Shown here one piece after another: positions 28,859 to 38,220 of a stretch of DNA of 64,000 nucleotides (position 1 is the first letter of the stretch; each line of letters starts with the position of its first letter). A program made the position numbers and the translations under genes. This DNA is from an uncultured Pedosphaera sp. (GTDB lineage Bacteria > Verrucomicrobiota > Verrucomicrobiia > Limisphaerales > Pedosphaeraceae): assembly GCA_903918755.1 (NCBI GenBank), contig CAIXFN010000101.1:186001-250000 (forward strand), given 5' to 3'. Under the pieces are notes generated by a model. That model was not told the DNA's origin and searched no databases. It saw only the letters and a list, made by a program, of their open reading frames with translations.

Positions 28859-29341
28859 TCACGTCAGCTTGCGGAAAAAATGCCTGCGGGTGTGTGGGCG
28901 AAAACCGTGGCGTTCGTAAAGCGGCACGGCGCGTTCATGATCCGTTTCCACCTCCAGATCCAGCGCGCGCCAACCCCGGCTCCGGGCTTGGCCCAGGATT
29001 TCGGCGAGCAACCGGCTCCCCACGCCTTGCTGCCGGCATTCCGGCCGGACATAAAGCTCCTCCAGCCAGCCACTTTCGCCGCCATGCTCCACCCCGAGGA
29101 AGGCACTGGCCAGGGCCACTCCAACGATTCCGACTCCGGTCAGTCTGGCCACCAGGATGAAACCGCGGTTGGGTTCCTGCAAAATTGTCGCTATGACGTT
29201 TCGCAAGTCCGCCTCATTTGATTCGATCCGGTGTTCCAACAACTGCCGCCGGAACAACCCGATCACCTCCCCGACGTCCTCCGCTTCCAGGGGCCTTATC
29301 TGGATCTCCGGCGGGGGGAACGGTGGGACTACCGGACTCAT
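28859..29341 (-). CDS. GNAT-family N-acetyltransferase
   Basis: 160 residues from MSPVVPPF. IQIRPLEAEDVGEVIGLF opens the fold, LEELYVRPECRQQGVGSRLL is the acetyl-CoA binding segment (about 92-111), and YERHGFRP is the C-terminal motif. The substrate is unknown. The start at 29341 shares one base with the upstream tautomerase stop (TAATG), typical of coupling. It sits downstream of an ECF-type box and may be part of that regulon. Confidence 0.83.
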   Translation of the reverse strand: MSPVVPPFPPPEIQIRPLEAEDVGEVIGLFRRQLLEHRIESNEADLRNVIATILQEPNRGFILVARLTGVGIVGVALASAFLGVEHGGESGWLEELYVRPECRQQGVGSRLLAEILGQARSRGWRALDLEVETDHERAVPLYERHGFRPHTRRHFFRKLT

Positions 29342-29544
29342 TATTTCGTTCGCGCCCGGTATTCCGTGGTCAACACCCCATCGAAACCCCAATTCTCGGG
29401 CTCGATCTCGTCGATAACGATGTGAATCTGGTCCGCTCTTTTCCGCAAGGTTGTCACGAGGGTTGCGGTGATGTCTTTTACTATTTGGGCCTTTTGGGCC
29501 TGCGTCACGCCGTCCCGCGTGATTTTCACATTAACATAGGGCAT
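29341..29544 (-). CDS. 4-oxalocrotonate tautomerase-family protein
   Basis: 67 residues beginning MPYVNVKITRDGV, so Pro would be the N-terminal catalytic base after Met removal. The remainder (TAQKAQIVKDIT-like helix, IHIVIDEIEPENWGFDG) is typical of 4-oxalocrotonate tautomerase-family subunits. Such proteins catalyse keto-enol tautomerisation or dehalogenation. It lies 27 bases after the ZAS anti-sigma-like gene and is coupled to the GNAT gene. Confidence 0.88.
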   Translation of the reverse strand: MPYVNVKITRDGVTQAQKAQIVKDITATLVTTLRKRADQIHIVIDEIEPENWGFDGVLTTEYRARTK

Positions 29545-29571: not shown

Positions 29572-29877
29572 TTATTTCCCCTGGCTGCGCAGCCTTTGTT
29601 TGATCCGCTGCCGCGCCTCGGCCGGGAGGTTCTGCGGAACGCACCCGGTCAAATCATCGGAGTGTTCTTGCGCCGCGTGGCTCAGAAAGCGGATTTGCCG
29701 GCCATATCGGCGGCACCATTTGCACACCAATAGGTGCAGCCACATCCCCAACCGTTGGGAAACGCCGAGCGGTCGCTCGAGAGCGTCCGATTGAATTCGG
29801 GCGACTTGCCGGCAAGACGGCATTAGCGTGCGCAACCCGGTTTTCAGGGCTTCGGTGGTTTTCTTCAAAAATTCCAT
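29572..29877 (-). CDS. ZAS-type zinc-binding anti-sigma-like protein
   Basis: 101 residues from MEFLKKTTEALK; a GTG at 29901 would add eight. It has CRQVARIQSDALERPLGVSQR, then the zinc-binding pattern H-x3-C-x2-C in HLLVCKWC. This is the ZAS signature of soluble ECF anti-sigma factors, and no membrane helix is visible. It lies just downstream of the ECF sigma gene but has its own candidate ECF box in between (29916-29940). It probably restrains that sigma factor and is itself induced by it, a normal feedback design. Confidence 0.75.
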   Translation of the reverse strand: MEFLKKTTEALKTGLRTLMPSCRQVARIQSDALERPLGVSQRLGMWLHLLVCKWCRRYGRQIRFLSHAAQEHSDDLTGCVPQNLPAEARQRIKQRLRSQGK

Positions 29878-29915
29878 TTTACAGCGCAACCGACCCCACA
29901 CCGCACCATAGCTTT

Positions 29916-29940
29916 GTCGGTTGATCTGCCGACTCCTTAC
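29916..29940 (-). promoter_or_regulatory. Candidate ECF promoter box GTAAGG-N14-CCGAC ahead of the anti-sigma-like gene
   Basis: On the minus strand TGTAAGG is followed by 14 bases and CCGAC, then AAAG. It is in the gap between the sigma gene and the ZAS gene, 38 bases before the ZAS start. It has exactly the same spacing as three other copies at 30692, 34279 and 34773. I read GTAAGG as the -35 and CCGAC as the -10 element; this is inference from conservation. Confidence 0.65.
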
Positions 29941-29961
29941 ACTTTTTTATGGTCGTGGGCA

Positions 29962-30648
29962 TCACTTTTCTTTCGCGAACCAATTAGCCTCGAGGCAGCG
30001 GCGCAACGCCATGCGAGCGCGATGCAGCATTACCCAAAGGTTGCTTTCCGAAATTCCCAGCAACGCGCAAATCTCCTTGCCCGTGACTCCATCCAATTCG
30101 CGCAGAGTGAATACGGCGGCAACCTTTTCCGGAAGCTTGGCCGAGCAATCGCGATACGTTTGCCAGAACCTTTCGTTGTCGAGACTTTCACCGGTCTTCT
30201 GCCATTCACACGGTCCGATTTCGCTGATCCAATGACCTTCATGCGCCCCCTCCGTCACAAAGCGGTCGCCTTCTTCCTCGGCATAAAATCCCAGGTCGGT
30301 AAAAGATGTTTCGCGACTGGCCTTCCGGAAGTGGTCGCAGATTTTATTTTTTAGGATTCCCACGAGCCAGCTTTTCTCCTGGGATCGGCCGGCAAACGTC
30401 CGGCCGCCTTTGAGCGCGGCGAGAAAGGTTTCCTGCACTGCGTCTTCCGCCCGGGCCGCATCCCGCAGTCGCAGCAGCGCGAACTTGAACAGGTAATCTC
30501 CATGCGTCTCGACCCAGCGCTCCGGATCAGAGAGGCCGGTCGAAGGGTTTTCGTCGGTCGGTGCGGAAGGATTTTCAGTTTGCACGCTTGGTTTCAAGAT
30601 TCCGCGAATGAGTAGTGGTCCCGCGCCAATCCGGAAAGAAAATCGCAT
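29962..30648 (-). CDS. RNA polymerase ECF-type sigma-70 factor
   Basis: 228 residues from the ATG at 30648; an upstream TTG gives a 238-residue form. Region 2 lies at about 40-105 (LFKFALLRLRDAARAEDAVQETFLAAL, quoted in pieces: RDAARAEDAVQETF) and region 4 at about 170-222 (LPEKVAAVFTLRELDG, GKEICALLGISESNLWVMLHRAR). Between them is a longer linker than in the shortest ECFs. It divides the local regulon: four GTAAGG-N14-CCGAC boxes surround it. I do not see the box in front of the sigma gene itself. Confidence 0.9.
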   Translation of the reverse strand: MRFSFRIGAGPLLIRGILKPSVQTENPSAPTDENPSTGLSDPERWVETHGDYLFKFALLRLRDAARAEDAVQETFLAALKGGRTFAGRSQEKSWLVGILKNKICDHFRKASRETSFTDLGFYAEEEGDRFVTEGAHEGHWISEIGPCEWQKTGESLDNERFWQTYRDCSAKLPEKVAAVFTLRELDGVTGKEICALLGISESNLWVMLHRARMALRRCLEANWFAKEK

Positions 30649-30691
30649 GCCCGGTGGGAAAAGTGAAGCAGAAAGCAACGAAGTCCTCCCT

Positions 30692-30716
30692 GTAAGGTTT
30701 GGCTGCCAGCGCCGAC
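30692..30716 (+). promoter_or_regulatory. Candidate ECF promoter box ahead of the YedZ-Rieske operon
   Basis: TGTAAGG, 14 bases, CCGAC, then TAAA. It is divergent from the sigma gene and 126 bases before the ATG at 30843, the first gene of the plus-strand operon. Same spacing as three other copies within 5 kb. Confidence 0.65.
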
Positions 30717-30842
30717 TAAAGGGTGCATGGGTTACCAGAAATCAAAGCTTGTTTGCCGACCAGTGGGCTGCCGGTTTCAGCCGCGAATCAACATTTTGAA
30801 TGGCGAATTGCATTCAGAAACACAACTGGAGGCCCTCGTAAC

Positions 30843-31109
30843 ATGATTGCCAATGCCATGCTGCTCCTGCTCGCCATCTATCTGGCGTGCGGTTTTTTGT
30901 TTGCCTTTCCCTTCGCGCTTTTTGGGGTCAAAGCAATCGATCCGCGCGCGGCGCATGGTTCGTGGGGATTTCGCATTTTGATCATTCCGGGAACGATTGC
31001 GCTTTGGCCTTGGCTACTGCGGCGCTGGCTGGGGGGCGTCCACGAACCGCCGGAAGAATGTACGATCCACCGCCGGCTCGCACGGCCGGGCAACACCTCC
31101 ACGCAATGA
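30843..31109 (+). CDS. Small membrane protein, first gene of the YedZ-Rieske operon
   Basis: 88 residues with two membrane helices (about 4-26 and 43-58) and a conserved-looking tail ALWPWLLRRWL...PPEECTIHRRL. It resembles small uncharacterised proteins found beside YedZ/ferric-reductase-like genes. The ATG at 30843 is used rather than the longer open frame, because the hydrophobic segment begins right after it. It overlaps the next gene by four bases. It may be an accessory subunit of the neighbouring electron-transfer protein. Confidence 0.72.
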   Translation: MIANAMLLLLAIYLACGFLFAFPFALFGVKAIDPRAAHGSWGFRILIIPGTIALWPWLLRRWLGGVHEPPEECTIHRRLARPGNTSTQ

Positions 31110-31600
31110 CCCGTTCCTTGCGCCAACGCCATCGTCGCATCTTCACCGCGCTCGCGGTGCTTCTGCCTGTCGTCTTCGCGGTCGGTATTGCCGCCCGTAA
31201 AACCGTACCGCCCGTCGGCGCGACGACGCCCGATCTTGCCTTGTCACGCGTACCCTTCGGTTCCGAGCAATGGCGGCGCGAGGACTTGTTTCCCAAGACC
31301 AGGATCCAAGTGGGTCTGTTCCGCGAAACTGCGGACCAGGGCCGCTTTGTGATTAGCCTGGCGGTGGCAAAGGATTTTGCCCGACCGGATTTACTGGTTT
31401 ATTGGGCGGTAGGAAGGCCAGTTGCCACCAACGCGTTGCCGGCCAATGCGATTCTGCTGGGAGCCTGCGCGCCGTCGGTAAAGCTGCCGCTCCCCGCTGC
31501 CTCCTTCACCACCGAGGGCGCCTTAATTATCTACAATCTGGCCGAAAACGAGGTCGTGGACATTTCCCGAACCATTCGTTTCGACGGCTCAAAATTTTAA
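31106..31600 (+). CDS. Membrane-anchored or exported protein of unknown function in the YedZ-Rieske operon
   Basis: 164 residues from the ATG overlapping the previous stop (ATGA). A single hydrophobic segment (about 12-30) follows a strongly basic N-terminus (MTRSLRQRHRR). The rest is a likely periplasmic beta-rich domain with no recognised motif. Position between a small membrane protein and the YedZ-Rieske fusion suggests a role in the same electron-transfer system. Confidence 0.72.
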   Translation: MTRSLRQRHRRIFTALAVLLPVVFAVGIAARKTVPPVGATTPDLALSRVPFGSEQWRREDLFPKTRIQVGLFRETADQGRFVISLAVAKDFARPDLLVYWAVGRPVATNALPANAILLGACAPSVKLPLPAASFTTEGALIIYNLAENEVVDISRTIRFDGSKF

Positions 31601-31615
31601 CCGCAGGAGTAATTC

Positions 31616-32671
31616 ATGGGTATCGCCTATATATCAGTTCAATGGAATCGGCAGAAGAAATTCTACGACGCCGTGCTCGTCGGCGGAGTGGCGGTGTACC
31701 TTTCTGTATTTGGGGCGTTGACCAAGAGCCTGTTTCCTTTCGTTACCGATGAGATCATGCTCATGCGCGCCTTCGGCACGGCGGCGTTCCTGCTGCTGCA
31801 TGTCATTCTCGCGATCGGCCCCCTGAGCCGCCTGAATCCCAAATTCCTGCCGCTGCTTTATAATCGGCGGCATGCGGGCGTCACCCTGTTCCTGCTCGCC
31901 CTCGTTCACGCCACCTTGGTCATTCTGACCTATCATGCGGGCAGCACCGTCAATCCCATCGCCAGTATTTTCATTTCCAGCCCTTTAAACGGGGCGGTCA
32001 CGGGGGTGCCATTTCAGCCTTTTGGTTTTTTCGCGCTGGTCATTCTATTTCTCCTGGCCGCCACGAGTCATGATTTTTGGCTGGCGAATCTCAGCGCGCC
32101 AGTCTGGAAATCTTTGCACATGCTGGTTTATTTCGCCTACGCCCTGCTGGTTCTGCACGTGACGTTTGGCGTGCTCCAGGGCGAAACCCATCCGCTTTAC
32201 GTGGGCGCGACCGCGGCGGGTCTGCTTGGCGTGGTCGGCCTTCAGCTCGTCGCCGCCCGGAAGACCCGGCCGCTGGACGAGGAAAAAGCTCCGGATTCGG
32301 GCCCCGACGGGTTTGTGGATGCCTGCGCGGTGGCTGATATTCCCGAGAATCGCGCTCGCATTGTTTGTCTCTCGGGTGAGCGGGTGGCGATCTTCAAGTA
32401 TGACGGCAAAGTATCCGCGGTTTCCAACCTCTGCCAGCACCAGAACGGTCCGCTGGGTGAGGGCAAGATTATTTACGGCTGCATCACTTGCCCGTGGCAT
32501 GGGTATCAATACGCGCCCGACACCGGGGCGGCGCCCGCGCCATTCGTCGAAAAAGTGCCCACCTTCAAGGTGCAGGTCCGCGGTGGTCGCGTTTTTGTTC
32601 ACCCACAACCGAACCCCGCGGGCACCCAAGTCGAGCCGGCGCTGATTGCGGCGCCGGCCACTATTTTATGA
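31616..32671 (+). CDS. YedZ/ferric-reductase-like membrane protein fused to a Rieske [2Fe-2S] domain
   Basis: 351 residues. The N-terminal part (about 15-215) has six hydrophobic helices with His residues in HVILAIG, RRHAGVT, LVHATL, LHMLVYF and LHVTFG, the ferric-reductase-like heme-binding fold. The C-terminal part (about 235-335) is a Rieske ferredoxin domain with CQHQNGPLG and CITCPWHGYQ, giving both C-x-H and C-x2-H cluster ligands. It likely moves electrons between a quinone or heme pool and a periplasmic or cytosolic partner. The start has a good AGGAG sequence. Confidence 0.87.
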   Translation: MGIAYISVQWNRQKKFYDAVLVGGVAVYLSVFGALTKSLFPFVTDEIMLMRAFGTAAFLLLHVILAIGPLSRLNPKFLPLLYNRRHAGVTLFLLALVHATLVILTYHAGSTVNPIASIFISSPLNGAVTGVPFQPFGFFALVILFLLAATSHDFWLANLSAPVWKSLHMLVYFAYALLVLHVTFGVLQGETHPLYVGATAAGLLGVVGLQLVAARKTRPLDEEKAPDSGPDGFVDACAVADIPENRARIVCLSGERVAIFKYDGKVSAVSNLCQHQNGPLGEGKIIYGCITCPWHGYQYAPDTGAAPAPFVEKVPTFKVQVRGGRVFVHPQPNPAGTQVEPALIAAPATIL

Positions 32672-33435
32672 AGCAACCTGACGAATTCTACATCGGCTGG
32701 GAAGCCAAGGCTGCTCCTGGAATCGGCAAGACCATCCGCATTACGGTGGGCGGTCTGCTGGCGGTTGTGGTGGTCGCTGCCATCGCTTTCGCGCTTGCGC
32801 AACGGCTGATCACCGACGGCGTCTTTGAATGGGGCCATCTCAAGATGGTTTCAGGAGTTCTCGAGTCCCAGCCCTATCCGCATCTGCTGGTGACCCGTCC
32901 GGGCAAGGTCGCCGGATTGCCGGGCTTCTCATCGTATTACCTGGTGGCGCCGTGGAAATTTGGGTTGCCCCAGGATGCCATCGCCCCATTCGCGGGCAAA
33001 CCCGTCACCGTCAAGGGCACGCTCATCTATCGTGGCGGCCAAACCATGATCGAAACGAAGCCGGAATGGATTCAAGCCACGGCCCCATCCGCCCCTGCCA
33101 TTACCCCCACGCCCGTGTCCCTTGGCCGCCAAACCCTGACCGGCGAAATTGTGGACAGCAAATGCTTCCTGGGCGTGATGAATCCAGGCCAGTACCTACC
33201 CCACCGCGCCTGCGCCATCCGTTGCATCAGCGGCGGCGTGCCGCCGATCCTGGTGGTTCACGCCCAAGACGGTTCCCTGACTCATTTCCTACTCGTCTCC
33301 GCGGCAGGCCAACCGGTTAATCAACAGGTTTTAAATCTGGTGGCCGAACCCGTCGAGATCACCGGCGAAGTCGTCCGCCAAGGGGAATTGCTGATCTTGA
33401 GCGCTGACCCGGCGACCTATCGTCGGAGGAAATAG
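32668..33435 (+). CDS. Membrane-anchored protein of unknown function following YedZ-Rieske
   Basis: 255 residues from the ATG overlapping the YedZ-Rieske stop by four bases. One membrane helix (about 25-47) is followed by a periplasmic region with two beta-rich halves (about 55-135 and 150-250), each with an OB-like pattern (GVLESQPYPHLLV; GEIVDSKCFLGVMNPG). The second half has three Cys (DSKCFLG, HRACAIRCISG), which could bind a metal or form a disulfide. The tight coupling argues for a subunit of the same redox complex. Confidence 0.75.
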   Translation: MKQPDEFYIGWEAKAAPGIGKTIRITVGGLLAVVVVAAIAFALAQRLITDGVFEWGHLKMVSGVLESQPYPHLLVTRPGKVAGLPGFSSYYLVAPWKFGLPQDAIAPFAGKPVTVKGTLIYRGGQTMIETKPEWIQATAPSAPAITPTPVSLGRQTLTGEIVDSKCFLGVMNPGQYLPHRACAIRCISGGVPPILVVHAQDGSLTHFLLVSAAGQPVNQQVLNLVAEPVEITGEVVRQGELLILSADPATYRRRK

Positions 33436-33484
33436 CCACCGCAAGGGTAGCAGACTCGCGTCGGTGCCCGTAAGGAACCAATTT

Positions 33485-34246
33485 ATGAGAATACTCCAAA
33501 TCTGTTTGTTTTTGCTCCTCACCGGCTCCGGATACTCGCAAACGGTGCCCGTCACCTTCCAGAGCCGGGCCGAAGCAACCGCTTTGCTGGAGCTTTACAC
33601 CTCCGAAGGCTGCAGCAGTTGTCCGCCCGCCGAAACCTGGTTGAGCCGTCTGACTGAATCGCCGCAATTGTGGCAGGATTTTGTCCCGGTGGCCTTTCAT
33701 ATTGATTATTGGGACCGATTGGGCTGGCGCGATCCATGGTCTTCAGCCGCATTTTCGGAGCGCCAAAAAGCCTATGCCGCCGAATGGCGGAGCGAATCGG
33801 TTTATACGCCCGAGTTCGTGTTGGCCGGTCGCGAGTGGCCCGATTGGGCTGGCCAAAAAGTGATCCCGAAATCGGGTCGAGCCAAACCGGGCGTGCTGAC
33901 CGTGAGTTCAGTCGCAAGCAATCGCTGGACCGTAAAATTTGTGCCGACGACCGCTGGCGCCAAAGGATTCGAAGTTCATGCGGCCCGGCTGGCCAGTGGT
34001 TTGCGATCCGACGTCAAATCGGGAGAAAACGGTGGCCGGCGGCTGATCCATGATTTTGTCGTCCTGACCCAGGTGCACGCTCCTTTGACGATCGCTGGAG
34101 GCGAGGCTACGGGCGAGTTCGTCTTGCCGCGCGGGCCTGCCAGTTCCGGCCGCCTGGCCCTCGCGGTCTGGATTACTCCCGCGAGTGGGCTTGCCCCCTT
34201 GCAGGCCACCGGCGGTTGGCTGGAACAACCAGCGGCCGGTCGTTAA
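33485..34246 (+). CDS. DUF1223 secreted thioredoxin-like protein
   Basis: 253 residues with a signal peptide (MRILQICLFLLLTGSGYS, cleavage near 18). The DUF1223 signature LELYTSEGCSSCPPAE carries the thioredoxin-like C-x2-C as CSSC (about 39-42), and FHIDYWDRLGWRDPWSS follows at about 70-86. DUF1223 proteins are periplasmic and of unknown role. An AAGGA sequence lies 8 bases before the ATG. It is the last gene of the unit beginning at 30843. Confidence 0.87.
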   Translation: MRILQICLFLLLTGSGYSQTVPVTFQSRAEATALLELYTSEGCSSCPPAETWLSRLTESPQLWQDFVPVAFHIDYWDRLGWRDPWSSAAFSERQKAYAAEWRSESVYTPEFVLAGREWPDWAGQKVIPKSGRAKPGVLTVSSVASNRWTVKFVPTTAGAKGFEVHAARLASGLRSDVKSGENGGRRLIHDFVVLTQVHAPLTIAGGEATGEFVLPRGPASSGRLALAVWITPASGLAPLQATGGWLEQPAAGR

Positions 34247-34278
34247 TTATGAGGCGGCGGAAAAGGTTGGAGTAGCCT

Positions 34279-34303
34279 GTAAGGTTTCGCTTTTCGCCCC
34301 GAC
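34279..34303 (+). promoter_or_regulatory. Candidate ECF promoter box ahead of the YHS-domain gene
   Basis: TGTAAGG, 14 bases, CCGAC, then GAAT. The CCGAC ends only 10 bases before the ATG at 34314, so if this is the promoter, the transcript would have almost no leader. Same spacing as the copies at 29916 (minus strand), 30692 and 34773. Confidence 0.65.
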
Positions 34304-34313
34304 GAATTGGCAT

Positions 34314-34769
34314 ATGAAAACATTATTCTCGCTGATCCTCGTGCTGGGACTCGCGTTTCCCACGCTCGCGCAAACCAACAAAACCCTGCTGAACCTCGAC
34401 AAGACTGGCGTGGCCATTCAAGGCTATGATCCCGTCGCCTTTTTCACCGACGGCAAGCCCGTGAAAGGCAAGCCGGAGTTCGTGACCAAACGCGACGGGG
34501 CGGTTTACCTTTTTTCCTCGAAAGAGCACCAGCAGTCATTCGTCAAAGATCCCGCAAAGTATGAACCGGTTTTTGGCGGCTATTGTGCCTACGGGGTCTC
34601 ACGCAACAAGCTGGTGGAAATCGACGTCAACGCTTTTCAAATCGTCGACGGGAAGCTGGTACTCCAGTATAGCAAGGGCGTGCGCGACGATTTTAACAAA
34701 GATGCGACGGGCAATTTGACCAAAGCTCAGCAATACTGGCCCGGATTGGTCGAGAAAAAGGGAAAATAG
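34314..34769 (+). CDS. Secreted YHS-domain protein
   Basis: 151 residues with a signal peptide (MKTLFSLILVLGLAFPTLAQ). The YHS signature reads AIQGYDPVAFFTDGKPVKG (about 35-53) with YLFSSKEHQQSFVKDPAKYEPVFGG-type continuation (quoted in part: SSKEHQQSF, PVFGGYCAYG). YHS proteins are small metal- or heme-associated domains often linked with metal handling. It has its own candidate ECF box immediately upstream. Confidence 0.87.
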   Translation: MKTLFSLILVLGLAFPTLAQTNKTLLNLDKTGVAIQGYDPVAFFTDGKPVKGKPEFVTKRDGAVYLFSSKEHQQSFVKDPAKYEPVFGGYCAYGVSRNKLVEIDVNAFQIVDGKLVLQYSKGVRDDFNKDATGNLTKAQQYWPGLVEKKGK

Positions 34770-34772
34770 TTG

Positions 34773-34797
34773 GTAAGGAAACGTCACCCAAGCCGAC
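34773..34797 (+). promoter_or_regulatory. Candidate ECF promoter box ahead of the DoxX operon
   Basis: GGTAAGG, 14 bases, CCGAC. It lies 17 bases before the ATG at 34815 and right after the YHS stop codon, so it would start a separate transcript reading through 38220. The G before GTAAGG replaces the T seen in the other three copies. Confidence 0.6.
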
Positions 34798-34814
34798 CCA
34801 CCATCGGAATAATT

Positions 34815-35228
34815 ATGGAATCCTGCAAGACCCACCGCGCTGTCAGTTGGATCTCCCGCCTCATCCCGGCGGCGATCCTCCTCCAAACCCTGTTTTTCAA
34901 GTTCACCGGCGCGGAGGAATCCGTGTATATCTTCACCAAGGTTGGGATGGAGCCTTGGGGCCGCTGGGGTTCGGGGGTGGTGGAGTTGGTGGCGGCAGTT
35001 TTGCTCCTCACGCCACGCTTCGGCTGGGCGGGCGCCCTCCTGGCGCTGGGCGTGATGGGTGGCGCCATCATGGCGCACCTGACCGTGCTTGGCATCGAGG
35101 TCAAGGATGATGGCGGCCTGTTATTTGCGCTCGCCGTCACGGTTTTCCTTTTCAGCGCCTTCATCCTCTTTTTGCACCGCCACGAGATTCCTTTCCTTTC
35201 CCGGCTTTTGAAAACGCAAACCGCATGA
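34815..35228 (+). CDS. DoxX-like membrane protein
   Basis: 137 residues, four hydrophobic helices (about 12-30, 48-65, 68-90, 100-120), with FFKFTGAEESVYIFTKVGMEPWG typical of DoxX-like small membrane proteins (in pieces: FKFTGAEES, GMEPWGRWG). These often sit beside redox or thiol-stress genes and may help move electrons to quinones. The start at 34815 is preferred over the in-frame 34770 since the latter lies before the ECF box. It overlaps the DinB gene by four bases. Confidence 0.78.
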   Translation: MESCKTHRAVSWISRLIPAAILLQTLFFKFTGAEESVYIFTKVGMEPWGRWGSGVVELVAAVLLLTPRFGWAGALLALGVMGGAIMAHLTVLGIEVKDDGGLLFALAVTVFLFSAFILFLHRHEIPFLSRLLKTQTA

Positions 35229-35770
35229 ACTTGACTTCTCCCCATCAACACCAGGAGATCCTGGACTCTGCCATTGAGATCTTGTCCCAGGGCGAGGTCC
35301 TCCTCGGCGAGATCACTGACGAGGCTTACCTCCGCAAGGTCACGATCGCTTTTAACGCCTCCATCGGCGGACACTACCGCCATTGCCTCGACCATTTTCG
35401 CAGCCTGCTTAATGCCGCCTCGGGCGGGGATCTCAATTACGACGACCGGGAGCGGGGAACGCTGGTGGAGTGCGACCGTTTTGCGGCCCTGAATGCGACG
35501 CGGGAACTCCGCGACGGGTTTGTGGCCCTCGACCCGGCGGTGCTCCTCCGCACGCTAACGGTGACGTGCAAAACCAATTATTCCACGATGGGGTCCCAGT
35601 CGTTTCCCTCCACCGTTGGTCGCGAAGTGATGTATTCTGTCGCCCATGCCGTCCACCATTATGCGTTGATCGGGATCATCGGGGGGCTGCTGGGATTGTC
35701 CTTGCCGGCCGGCTTCGGGATTGCGCCTTCCACGTTGAAACATCAGGCAGAAACAACCAGGACAGCCTGA
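35225..35770 (+). CDS. DinB-family protein
   Basis: 181 residues, four-helix bundle pattern with candidate metal-binding His in GGHYRHCLDHF (about 42-52) and HAVHHYALIG (about 138-147). That is the His arrangement of DinB/YfiT-like metalloproteins, many of which act as thiol-dependent S-transferases. It overlaps the DoxX gene (ATGA) and is 24 bases before the DedA/ATP-grasp gene. Confidence 0.82.
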   Translation: MNLTSPHQHQEILDSAIEILSQGEVLLGEITDEAYLRKVTIAFNASIGGHYRHCLDHFRSLLNAASGGDLNYDDRERGTLVECDRFAALNATRELRDGFVALDPAVLLRTLTVTCKTNYSTMGSQSFPSTVGREVMYSVAHAVHHYALIGIIGGLLGLSLPAGFGIAPSTLKHQAETTRTA

Positions 35771-35794: not shown

Positions 35795-37447
35795 ATGACC
35801 GAAACCCTCACACTGTCGGCGCCGGATCTTGCCGCCTGGTTTCCGCTTTGGAAGGCGGCGGGTTTCTTTTTCGCCACCTTCATCCTGGAGGATGCGGCAG
35901 CCATCGGCGCGGGCTTGTTGCTGGCCACCGGTGGGCTTTCCTGGCCGGCCGCATTCACTGCCTGCTTCCTGGGAATTTGGTTGGGTGACGCGGGGCTCTA
36001 CGCCCTCGCGCGCGTCGGTGGCCGGCGCTGGTTTGACCGCTCCTCCTTTCACCGGTTCGCGGCCAAAGTCACGCAATGCGAAGGCTGGTTCGCCCGGCGT
36101 GGTACGATGGTTCTGATTTTTAGTCGCATGGTTCCGGGCGCCCGCCTGCCCACTTATCTCGCCGCCGGTTTTCTCCGGGTTCCGCTCCGGCGTTTTCTGC
36201 TCGTCACTGGATTGGCCGCTTTCGTCTGGACGTTCGCAGTTCTGTGGCTTGCCCAGACCGTCGGTGCCCGGGTGGCCCACGGGCTCGCTGCCTGGAAACA
36301 CGGATCGTTGATTTTGCTGGGAACCGCGCTCGCGGTATTTGTTGGCCTCCAATTCTTCCGCCGCGCCGTGCAGCAATGTGATTGGCGGCGTCTGGTCACC
36401 CGGCTGGGACGCTGGCAGCATTGGGAGTTCTGGCCGGCCTGGGCGTTTTACCCGCCGGTAATCGCCCGCTGCCTGTGGCTCGCGGTCAAATACCGGGGCT
36501 TGACCACTCCCACCGCGGCCAACCCCGGCATCTTTTCGGGCGGCATTGTCGGAGAATCCAAATCCGCCACCTTGGCCGATTTGTCGGCCACCAGCCCGGA
36601 ATTCACCGCCCCAGCCGCTTTGATTAGTGGCGCCAGCTTCCCGGAGCGTTGGCGTTCGTTGGAGAAAATCCGGGCGCAACTCGGCATCGACTATCCGTTC
36701 ATCCTCAAACCGGAGGAGGGCCAGCGTGGCCTGGGGGTAAAACTCATCCGCACGGCAACGCAAGCCGAAGCCTACCTGCGGCAAACCGCAGCTCCACTCA
36801 TCGCCCAACGGTATGCCGCCGGCCCCGGCGAAGCGGGGGTGTTTTATTATCGTTTTCCGCATGAGCCGCGCGGCCGCATTTTTGCCATCACCGAGAAGAT
36901 TTTCCCGGTAATCATCGGCGACGGACGCTCGACCATCGCGGACCTCATCGCCGCCGACCCGCGCGCCCGCTTCCTGGCCGACAAATACCTAGCCCGCTTC
37001 CGTTCGCGCCAGGATCAGGTGCTGGGCGAAGGCGAAAGCCTCAAATTGGTGGAGGCCGGCAACCACGCCCAGGGTTGTATTTTCCGCGAGGGCATGCACC
37101 TCTGTACTCCGGCATTGACCCGGCAAATCGACGAGATCTCGCAAAAAGTTCCCGGCTTCTTCATTGGGCGCTACGACATTCGCTACCCCAACGATGAGGA
37201 TTTGCGGGCGGGAATTAACTTCCAAATCATCGAGCTCAATGGCGCGGCCTCCGAGGCCACGAGTATTTACGACGCCCGCACTTCGCTGCTCGAGGCTTAC
37301 AAAACACTGTTTCGGCAATGGGAACTGGTCTTTGCCATCGGCGCCGCCAACCGGCAGTTGGGCTGCCGCCCGACGAGTCTTTTGGTTGTGTGGAAGAAAT
37401 GGCGGGAGCAACTCCAACGGGCCGCGACTTACCCCGCAGCGGATTAG
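35795..37447 (+). CDS. DedA-family membrane protein fused to an ATP-grasp ligase domain
   Basis: 550 residues. The first part (about 15-215) has about five hydrophobic helices with DedA marks, notably FILEDAAAIGAG, SRMVPGARLPTYLAAGF and FLLVTG. The second part (about 285-520) is ATP-grasp-like: DYPFILKPEEGQRGLGVKLI-type P-loop (quoted in part: FILKPEEGQRGLGV), GDGRSTIADLI, and FQIIELNGAASEAT, whose E and N would bind metal. The fusion suggests that a ligation reaction is tied to a lipid or membrane transport step. It is 8 bases before the NRDE gene. Confidence 0.84.
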   Translation: MTETLTLSAPDLAAWFPLWKAAGFFFATFILEDAAAIGAGLLLATGGLSWPAAFTACFLGIWLGDAGLYALARVGGRRWFDRSSFHRFAAKVTQCEGWFARRGTMVLIFSRMVPGARLPTYLAAGFLRVPLRRFLLVTGLAAFVWTFAVLWLAQTVGARVAHGLAAWKHGSLILLGTALAVFVGLQFFRRAVQQCDWRRLVTRLGRWQHWEFWPAWAFYPPVIARCLWLAVKYRGLTTPTAANPGIFSGGIVGESKSATLADLSATSPEFTAPAALISGASFPERWRSLEKIRAQLGIDYPFILKPEEGQRGLGVKLIRTATQAEAYLRQTAAPLIAQRYAAGPGEAGVFYYRFPHEPRGRIFAITEKIFPVIIGDGRSTIADLIAADPRARFLADKYLARFRSRQDQVLGEGESLKLVEAGNHAQGCIFREGMHLCTPALTRQIDEISQKVPGFFIGRYDIRYPNDEDLRAGINFQIIELNGAASEATSIYDARTSLLEAYKTLFRQWELVFAIGAANRQLGCRPTSLLVVWKKWREQLQRAATYPAAD

Positions 37448-37455
37448 CCCCGGCC

Positions 37456-38220
37456 ATGTGCACCGTGACTTTTATCGCGCGGCAGCGGGGCTATGCCCTG
37501 GGGATGAACCGCGACGAAAAATTGACCCGTCCGCCAGGTCATCCTCCCGAGCGGCGCGATCTTGGCGGCCACGCCGTATTATGCCCGTTTGAAACCGGCG
37601 GCGGCACCTGGATTGCGGTGAATGATCGTGGAGCGACGTTCGCGCTCATCAACTGGTACTCCGTAAAGGCAGCCGTTTCCGGCCGGACCGTAAGCCGCGG
37701 CGAGGTAATAAACGCGGTGAGCGGAAATCATCTGCCCGGGAACTTGGAGTCCATATTGTTGGGTTTGCCCCTGAGTCAGATCAATCCGTTTCGGCTCATT
37801 GCCGTGTTTCCCGAGCCTGGACTGGTCACGGAATGGCGTTGGAATTTGTGCCGGCTCCTCCGTCTTGATCACTCCTGGAAGACCCGGCAATGGATCTCCT
37901 CCGGCTTCGATGAGCCAACCGCCGAACACGCGCGCGGCAAAACTTTTGAACGCGTGCTGCGGCAACGCTCGGCGGGCAGTTTGGATTGGTTGCGGCGCTT
38001 GCACCGTTCCCATTCACCCCACGCCGGCCCTTTCTCCACCTGCATGCATCGTCACGACGCGGCCAGCGTCAGTTATACCGAGGTCGCCGTTTCTTCAGTC
38101 CGGGTGGAAATGCGCTACCACCCGGAGGCTCCCTGCCACAATCTGACTCCTGTATTGTCGCAGCTGAAACTGCGGCTTCCTCTCAATTCCGGCGCTGCAA
38201 TTCCGCTTCCAACTCCGTGA
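37456..38220 (+). CDS. NRDE (TANGO2-type) family protein
   Basis: 254 residues beginning MCTVTFIARQRGYALGMNRDE; the NRDE motif lies at about 18-21 and Cys2 would be the N-terminal nucleophile after Met removal. The family is linked to heme or acyl-compound handling but its reaction is unsettled. The frame is open upstream, but the family N-terminus fixes the ATG at 37456. Its 3' end overlaps the convergent PPOX gene by 38 bases. Confidence 0.87.
   Translation: MCTVTFIARQRGYALGMNRDEKLTRPPGHPPERRDLGGHAVLCPFETGGGTWIAVNDRGATFALINWYSVKAAVSGRTVSRGEVINAVSGNHLPGNLESILLGLPLSQINPFRLIAVFPEPGLVTEWRWNLCRLLRLDHSWKTRQWISSGFDEPTAEHARGKTFERVLRQRSAGSLDWLRRLHRSHSPHAGPFSTCMHRHDAASVSYTEVAVSSVRVEMRYHPEAPCHNLTPVLSQLKLRLPLNSGAAIPLPTP

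Follow-up and report, generated by a model that had tools for sequence, protein, structure and literature searches.

The closest described counterpart of the regulatory system considered here is the sigma-E (RpoE, NMB2144)/MseR (NMB2145) pair of Neisseria. According to the description in PMC2893595, neisserial sigma-E promoters consist of a -35 element GTMAGBWTT, a spacer of 12–13 nucleotides (nt) and a -10 element CGTCTAAH, and six bases further on a conserved A that corresponds to the mapped gonococcal msrA/msrB start; msrA/msrB is a target of sigma-E. The gene doxX is part of a neisserial sigma-E operon. Related targets recur in two other systems: Haemophilus influenzae RpoE2-HrsE, which responds to hypochlorite, is described as controlling both msrAB and a cluster with DoxX (PMC7907618), and Caulobacter SigF as using a GTAACC-N16-CGAA promoter, a DUF1109 negative regulator and DoxX among its targets (PMC3511200). 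Here we analyze a 64,000-nt stretch of DNA (the window) from an uncultured Pedosphaera sp. (GCA_903918755.1; contig CAIXFN010000101.1, positions 186,001–250,000), in which four copies of the motif GTAAGG-N14-CCGAC flank or lie near a gene for an extracytoplasmic function (ECF) sigma factor of family TIGR02943. We conclude that the four sites are very probably promoters read by the sigma factor encoded among them, on the evidence of the sigma family, the motif and its spacing, the co-occurrence of motif and sigma gene, and the recurrence of the same gene families downstream of the motif in related genomes.

The four copies had been pointed out in an earlier note on this DNA, and we recover all of them exactly, with the positions, strands and 14-base spacing given there. 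Promoter 1 (29916..29941, minus strand, TGTAAGG-N14-CCGAC) is predicted to drive the genes for a ZAS anti-sigma factor and a tautomerase, with a predicted +1 at 29907; promoter 2 (30691..30716, plus strand, predicted +1 at 30725) is predicted to drive the unit p88-p164-YedZ/Rieske-p255-DUF1223; promoter 3 (34278..34303, plus strand) is predicted to drive a YHS-domain gene, with a predicted +1 at 34312, two bases 5' of the ATG, which would give a near-leaderless mRNA; and promoter 4 (34772..34797, plus strand, predicted +1 at 34806) is predicted to drive DoxX-DinB-DedA-NRDE. Three of the copies begin with TGTAAGG, as had been noticed, and the fourth with GGTAAGG. Each copy lies just upstream of a transcription unit, outside called genes, at 38 nt from the ZAS start, 126 nt from the first open reading frame (ORF) of the YedZ-Rieske unit, 10 nt from the YHS gene and 17 nt from the DoxX gene. 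Two columns that had played no part in the original description also agree at all four sites, namely an A three bases and a purine nine bases past CCGAC. A further GTAAGG at 33470, 9 nt upstream of the ATG of the DUF1223 gene, is not followed by a suitably spaced CGAC and was excluded.

The earlier note had named an equal frequency of chance matches elsewhere as the result that would speak against it, and neither shuffled sequence, nor the whole genome, nor related genomes show one. In 100 shuffles of the window the pattern occurred 0.02 times on average and once at most, compared to four matches in the real sequence. The complete assembly (7.19 Mb in 118 contigs) holds six exact copies, four of them inside 5 kb; the remaining two (L001 and L002, on contigs C90 and C99) fall within ORFs that run in the other direction and are best regarded as chance matches. 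When an A two bases after CGAC is added to the pattern and a gap of 15 or 16 bases between GTAAGG and CGAC is allowed, three matches are found in the genome, all at the window locus; this A is replaced by C at the fourth window site and by T at a candidate fifth site before an msrA gene elsewhere in the genome. That fifth site also qualifies the claim that the two parts are always exactly 14 bases apart, which holds for the four window copies and not for the msrA site, where the distance is 15. Chance as the origin of the four copies is rejected on the shuffles together with the comparison of sigma-bearing and other genomes given below.

The sigma gene (29962..30678, minus strand, with its start at 30678 or 30648) matches TIGR02943 with 187.9 bits against a curated cut-off of 162.2; the gonococcal sigma-E protein scores 275.8 bits against the same profile. 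The adjoining gene (29572..29877, minus strand) encodes a ZAS-type anti-sigma factor of 101 amino acids with the pattern C-X25-H-X3-C-X2-C (NF052368, 64.9 bits, cut-off 50). No Pfam family matched this protein at E 0.01, and no membrane segment was seen in a reading by eye. Alignment of the gonococcal and ten Verrucomicrobia ZAS proteins shows C22, H48, C52 and C55 to be invariant in 11/11 sequences. The neisserial system shares with the window a TIGR02943 sigma factor, an adjoining ZAS protein with the same C-X25-H-X3-C-X2-C pattern, the -35 element GTMAG, equal spacing, the -10 frame CG-C-NAA and, as predicted for the window, DoxX and methionine sulfoxide reductase targets. The neisserial spacer of 12–13 nt amounts to a gap of 15–16 bases when it is counted from GTMAGB to CGTC. 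At the level of individual bases, GTAAGG and the spacing agree with the neisserial consensus at 4/4 window sites, WTT at 2/4 and the last A of TAA at 4/4. In an unannotated gonococcal record, TGTCAGTTTT...CGTCTAAC with a gap of 15 is found about 2.6 kb upstream of the sigma gene.

The window system differs from neisserial sigma-E in its predicted YedZ-Rieske, YHS, DUF1223, DedA and NRDE targets, in an anti-sigma gene with its own predicted promoter, and in giving no hint that the sigma factor controls its own operon. Judged by sequence, its sigma factor, anti-sigma factor and -35 element make it a system of the Neisseria sigma-E type, with another -10 base, mostly other targets and apparently no sigma autoregulation. 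The earlier note had likened the promoter to that of Caulobacter SigF, with which it does share the layout GTAAnn...CGAn and, by prediction, a DoxX target; among known promoters, the neisserial sigma-E promoter comes closest. Kinship with SigF was rejected, as the promoter bases differ at 4/4 sites and the anti-sigma factor belongs to NF052368, not DUF1109. The Haemophilus system, compared here by its description in PMC7907618, shares a small ZAS anti-sigma factor, and its DoxX cluster is composed otherwise than the DoxX unit of the window.

To follow the motif beyond the window, we took 58 genomes, the own genome plus 57 from relatives, and looked in each for the sigma protein and the strict motif TGTAAGG-N15-CGAC. 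With a best E below 1e-20 as the threshold, 14 genomes including the own one carry the sigma factor (in one of them, G001 of the same genus, the contig ends within the sigma gene). The strict motif occurs 61 times in these 14 genomes and 23 times in the other 44, compared to 48 and 163 occurrences of the reversed pattern used as a control (Fisher P 2e-15), and with a gap of 16 the figures are 15 against 9. That the reversed pattern outnumbers the motif where the sigma gene is absent (163 vs 23) is not read as avoidance of the motif; base order alone may explain it. Sixty of the 61 strict sites were read in context (the 61st is L002), with genes taken from our own simple gene caller. Fifty-four are intergenic and followed by a gene on the same strand, 48 of them within 200 nt of its called start.

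Some of the genes found downstream of these sites are recognizable from the window. Among the 57 strict sites outside the window, the first called downstream gene is a homologue of ZAS, YHS, DinB, DoxX, DUF1223 or p164 in 18 cases. The motif precedes YHS-DinB-DedA-NRDE in the same-genus genome G001 (L058), a homologous YedZ-Rieske unit in G001 (L061, where it lies inside the called p88 start) and G003 (L065), DoxX in L062, and DinB-DedA-NRDE in L039, L048, L064 and L068; in G002 (L064), DUF1223, YHS and DinB each carry their own motif copy. Further strict sites stand upstream of GMC oxidoreductases (the family having been tested on L072 only), a short-chain dehydrogenase, MsrA, MsrB and the sigma gene itself. 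The short-chain dehydrogenase gene follows the motif in L043 (by Pfam match) and L076 (by a similar N-terminus), which implies that the regulon of some relatives reaches beyond redox repair. Of three MsrA genes in the own genome, one (G000:C28:31208-31660) encodes a protein that by eye has a signal peptide and is preceded by TGTAAGG-N16-CGAC ending 20 nt 5' of the ATG, the sole such match in the genome; this msrA gene likely belongs to the regulon. The motif also precedes MsrA genes of the same genus (L060) and the same family (L067, where MsrB follows).

The consensus of 49 aligned sites, including the GGTAAGG site of the window, is TGTAAGGWWT-N11-C-CGAC-NAA. The columns outside the motif played no role in finding the sites, and several of them are conserved: A or T next after TGTAAGG in 40 sites, T at the third position in 30, C before CGAC in 26 and, after CGAC, A at the second position in 33, A at the third in 45 and then C in 31. 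A purine stands 9 bases past CGAC in 41/49 sites; if it is taken as +1, CGAC occupies -12 to -9 and GTAAGG -33 to -28. A called start codon is found 8–12 bases past CGAC in 14/55 sites, including those of five YHS and three GMC-like genes (in the window at 34278-34316, and in L058, L064, L065, L070, L072, L076 and L081), and leaderless or near-leaderless stress mRNAs are consequently predicted. The arrangement CGAC-N10-ATG before YHS is kept in L058, L064 and L065, with N11 in L081. We also scanned named genomes once, using a profile built from 16 sigma sequences, and took the best 80 loci of a larger number, of which 57 are nearer loci of the family and 23 belong to more distant ECF genes. 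The record titles of the loci name Verrucomicrobia, Acidobacteria, Proteobacteria, Bacteroidetes, Planctomycetota and others. At the 57 nearer loci, the gap between GTAAGG and CGAC is 15 bases 37 times and 16 bases 12 times, and every other gap occurs 0–2 times; at the 23 outgroup loci, the gap histogram is flat. The peak at 15 stems partly from copies inside the sigma gene, with 17/37 instances found within the reading frame of sigma; the other 20, from 11 loci, are found elsewhere, and the 12 instances with gap 16, from 12 loci, are outside the frame.

The in-frame copies form a class of their own. A set of 173 sigma genes, or 171 without 2 near-copies, was assembled with the addition of 70 of 76 matches found in 150 genomes from the order of a Roseateles genome and 30 of 31 matches found in 149 genomes from the class of a Flavobacterium genome. 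Among the 171 loci, the promoter motif lies inside the sigma gene in 74 (22 of them in named records), in the interval between the sigma and ZAS genes in 5 (the window, L037, L038, L104 and L127) and before the sigma gene in 8. The locus of Roseateles puraquae (L129) is among those with the inside copy. A ZAS-like ORF follows downstream in 74/74 loci with an inside copy, at a median distance of 80 nt, in a loose search for which a bare H-X3-C-X2-C sufficed. Another copy is present in 0/74 genes with an inside copy and in 13/97 genes without one. Promoter 1 of the window is likely the counterpart of the inside promoter, located behind the sigma stop codon. In a separate observation, four Verrucomicrobia loci (L040, L041, L042 and L043) have two ZAS-like genes in tandem behind one sigma gene, and the two are separated by a promoter copy with gap 16 in L041 and L043.

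The inside copies fall on the region-4.2 codons for I-C-K-E-L-x-I-T-x-T-N-x-W-V, and the sequence of the protein may itself account for them: C-K-E...T-x-T-N would resemble the motif by coincidence, and the choice of codons could follow, for example, translation, in which case these copies would be no promoters. We regard this explanation as unlikely. It draws on the observation that a profile of the intergenic sites has its best match within the gene at this spot in 122/155 genes (window included), compared to a mean of 114/155 after synonymous recoding, so that this result is mostly protein-driven and adds little (the mean profile score at the spot is 7.05 vs 1.79); an independent-pairs test on the tree had too few pairs to be of use, with a median p of 0.5. 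The synonymous bases themselves, in contrast, are fixed towards the promoter. With region 4.2 placed by alignment, 160 genes have Cys at the relevant column. Where Lys follows (81 genes), the Cys codon is TGT in 77 genes compared to 31.5 expected from each gene's own codons, and the Lys codon is AAG in 79/81; where Gln follows (30 genes, the GTCAGG variant), TGT is found in 27 compared to 12.5 expected; and where any other residue follows (49 genes), TGT drops to 12, compared to 17.9 expected. The bias persists in 28 G+C-rich Lys genes (26 TGT vs 5.0 expected), and other Cys columns of the same 81 genes have TGT in 20/80, 31/80 and 9/23. The pattern TGTMAGG-N15-CGWC occurs in 60/81 Lys genes, 14/30 Gln genes and 0/49 others, with means of 2.4, 0.8 and 0 after synonymous recoding; the strict TGTAAGG-N15-CGAC is present in 43 of the 81 Lys genes. 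Promoter positions account for the four strongest synonymous biases in 330 column tests, whose P values take no account of relatedness among the genes. On a tree built without the site, the 111 Lys and Gln genes show 7 changes between TGT and TGC at this column, compared to 25 and 29 at two further columns for Cys. The in-gene site is lacking in the gonococcal sigma gene. Overall, the codon evidence argues that the region-4.2 codons of many Pseudomonadota and Bacteroidota TIGR02943 genes probably double as a promoter that is read by the same sigma factor and drives the anti-sigma gene behind it, with synonymous bases under selection, and that in the Verrucomicrobia clade of the window this promoter stands behind the stop codon. 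A search of an incomplete open-access collection turned up no earlier account of in-gene promoters in this family, and a predicted motif for the group may exist; the in-gene promoter of the sister lineages is in our view the most novel part of this work.

Two further explanations concern the intergenic sites. The motif could be the binding site of a shared transcription factor rather than a sigma promoter, and the location of most sites outside genes and before transcription units would suit such a factor. We consider this very improbable: the motif is non-palindromic and tracks the presence of the sigma gene, 54/60 sites point to a same-strand gene, the elements have promoter geometry, with the purine column nine bases on, and they resemble the neisserial sigma-E promoter. 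Alternatively, the promoters could be real and be read by another ECF sigma factor, of which the genome has many (21 matches to the TIGR02943 profile, one of them above the cut-off). The chance of this appears equally slight, given that the motif is carried by genomes with close relatives of the window sigma factor and that loci of more distant ECF genes show no preferred gap. Assignment of the sites to the TIGR02943 sigma factor has to be weighed against several observations. The window -10 element reads CGAC at 4/4 sites where Neisseria has CGTC, and motif 4 lacks the first T. In sigma-bearing genomes, 6/60 strict matches lie inside called genes, as delimited by the simple gene caller, and 6 of the remaining 54 are more than 200 nt from any called start. 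With the pattern used, 84/171 family loci have no motif in any of the three expected places. The inducing signal is deduced from gene content, and PMC2893595 describes meningococcal sigma-E expression as unchanged under the oxidative stimuli that were tried.

The promoter proposed for the TIGR02943 sigma factor would thus have a -35 element TGTAAGG(A/T)(A/T)T and a -10 element CGAC-N-A-A, with 15 and sometimes 16 bases between GTAAGG and CGAC and a start 9–10 bases past CGAC. By analogy with RsrA as cited in PMC2893595, oxidation of the ZAS anti-sigma factor would release the sigma factor, and the freed sigma factor would switch on the four local units and the MsrA gene elsewhere, that is, envelope repair and redox proteins. 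The presence of MsrA, MsrB, YedZ and DoxX suggests repair of envelope oxidation as the function. The earlier note had proposed an ECF sigma regulon with anti-sigma feedback, and the co-occurrence of motif and sigma gene and the excess over chance support it. Its feedback agrees with the motif before the anti-sigma gene; none was found before the sigma gene of the window, either with gap 15 and up to two mismatches or with gap 15–16 and an exact match, so that the feedback is predicted to act on the anti-sigma factor alone. Promoter 1 would then raise the anti-sigma factor without raising the sigma factor, resulting in a self-braking circuit. SigH and RshA of Corynebacterium glutamicum belong to another ECF group with other promoter bases, RshA being of ZAS type. 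They offer a measured precedent for such a loop, which the position of promoter 1 would fit: PMC3489674 describes a SigH-dependent promoter within sigH that yields rshA RNA only; that brake promoter lies within the sigH coding region, whereas the window one is behind the sigma stop codon.

The remaining genes of the four units agree with the layout given in the earlier note, which profile matches support for ZAS/tautomerase, YedZ-Rieske/DUF1223, YHS and DoxX-DinB-DedA-NRDE; the ATP-grasp part that it assigned to the C-terminal region of the DedA protein is a reading by eye, with no Pfam match in that part. The tautomerase (29341..29544, minus strand) has 67 amino acids and matches PF01361. The genes of units 2 to 4 are on the plus strand. 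Unit 2 opens with p88 (30843..31109), a small ORF for a membrane protein by eye with a 52% homologue in L061, followed by p164 (31106..31600), conserved within unit 2 with homologues in L061, L065 and L076, a fusion of a YedZ/MsrQ-like ferric-reductase membrane domain and a Rieske [2Fe-2S] domain (31616..32671; PF01794, PF00355), p255 (32668..33435), conserved within unit 2 with homologues in L061 and L065, and the DUF1223 protein (33485..34246; PF06764), which has its own motif copy in L064. Neither p164 nor p255 matched Pfam or NCBIfam at E 0.01; both travel with YedZ-Rieske, and p255 has conserved Cys residues in GEIVDSKC...HRACAIRC. The YHS-domain protein (34314..34769) matches NF041384 with 135.5 bits (cut-off 70) and has a signal peptide by eye. 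Unit 4 consists of a DoxX-like membrane protein (34815..35228; PF13564, PF07681), a DinB-superfamily protein (35225..35770; PF12867, under the curated cut-off), a DedA/VTT membrane domain protein (35795..37447; PF09335) and an NRDE/TANGO2 protein (37456..38220; PF05742).

Other ECF sigma genes, some of them of this family, have other neighbors. In Cupriavidus metallidurans, gigPABT-rpoQ-rsqA places an ECF sigma/anti-sigma pair beside an operon whose genes include DUF2063 and DoxX-related ones (PMC10304878); in the account given there, RsqA is called membrane-bound and there is as yet no evidence that gig depends on RpoQ. A similar neighborhood is annotated in L269, the likeness being one of gene neighborhood: its TIGR02943-family sigma gene adjoins annotated DUF2282-DUF692-DoxX (bufferin-type) genes. 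L129, L131 and L137 resemble L269 by eye, and their divergent operon is preceded by TGTAAGG-N16-CGAC. In L268, which lies on a plasmid of Burkholderia glumae, a sigma gene of the family and its zf-HC2 partner adjoin thioredoxin, CcdA and arsenosugar genes, and no GTAAGG motif with a gap of 14–17 was found at this locus.

A single promoter code for this ECF family across several phyla would make its regulons readable from genomes. The window would extend the Neisseria-type response to envelope oxidation to uncultured Verrucomicrobia, where it would have other targets, namely YedZ-Rieske, YHS and DUF1223. The results also point to a sigma gene whose DNA-reading domain encodes the DNA word that this domain reads, with a brake promoter whose position varies among lineages. 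Lastly, the motif makes it easier to test whether bufferin-type operons, perhaps including Cupriavidus gigPABT, obey the sigma factor encoded next to them.

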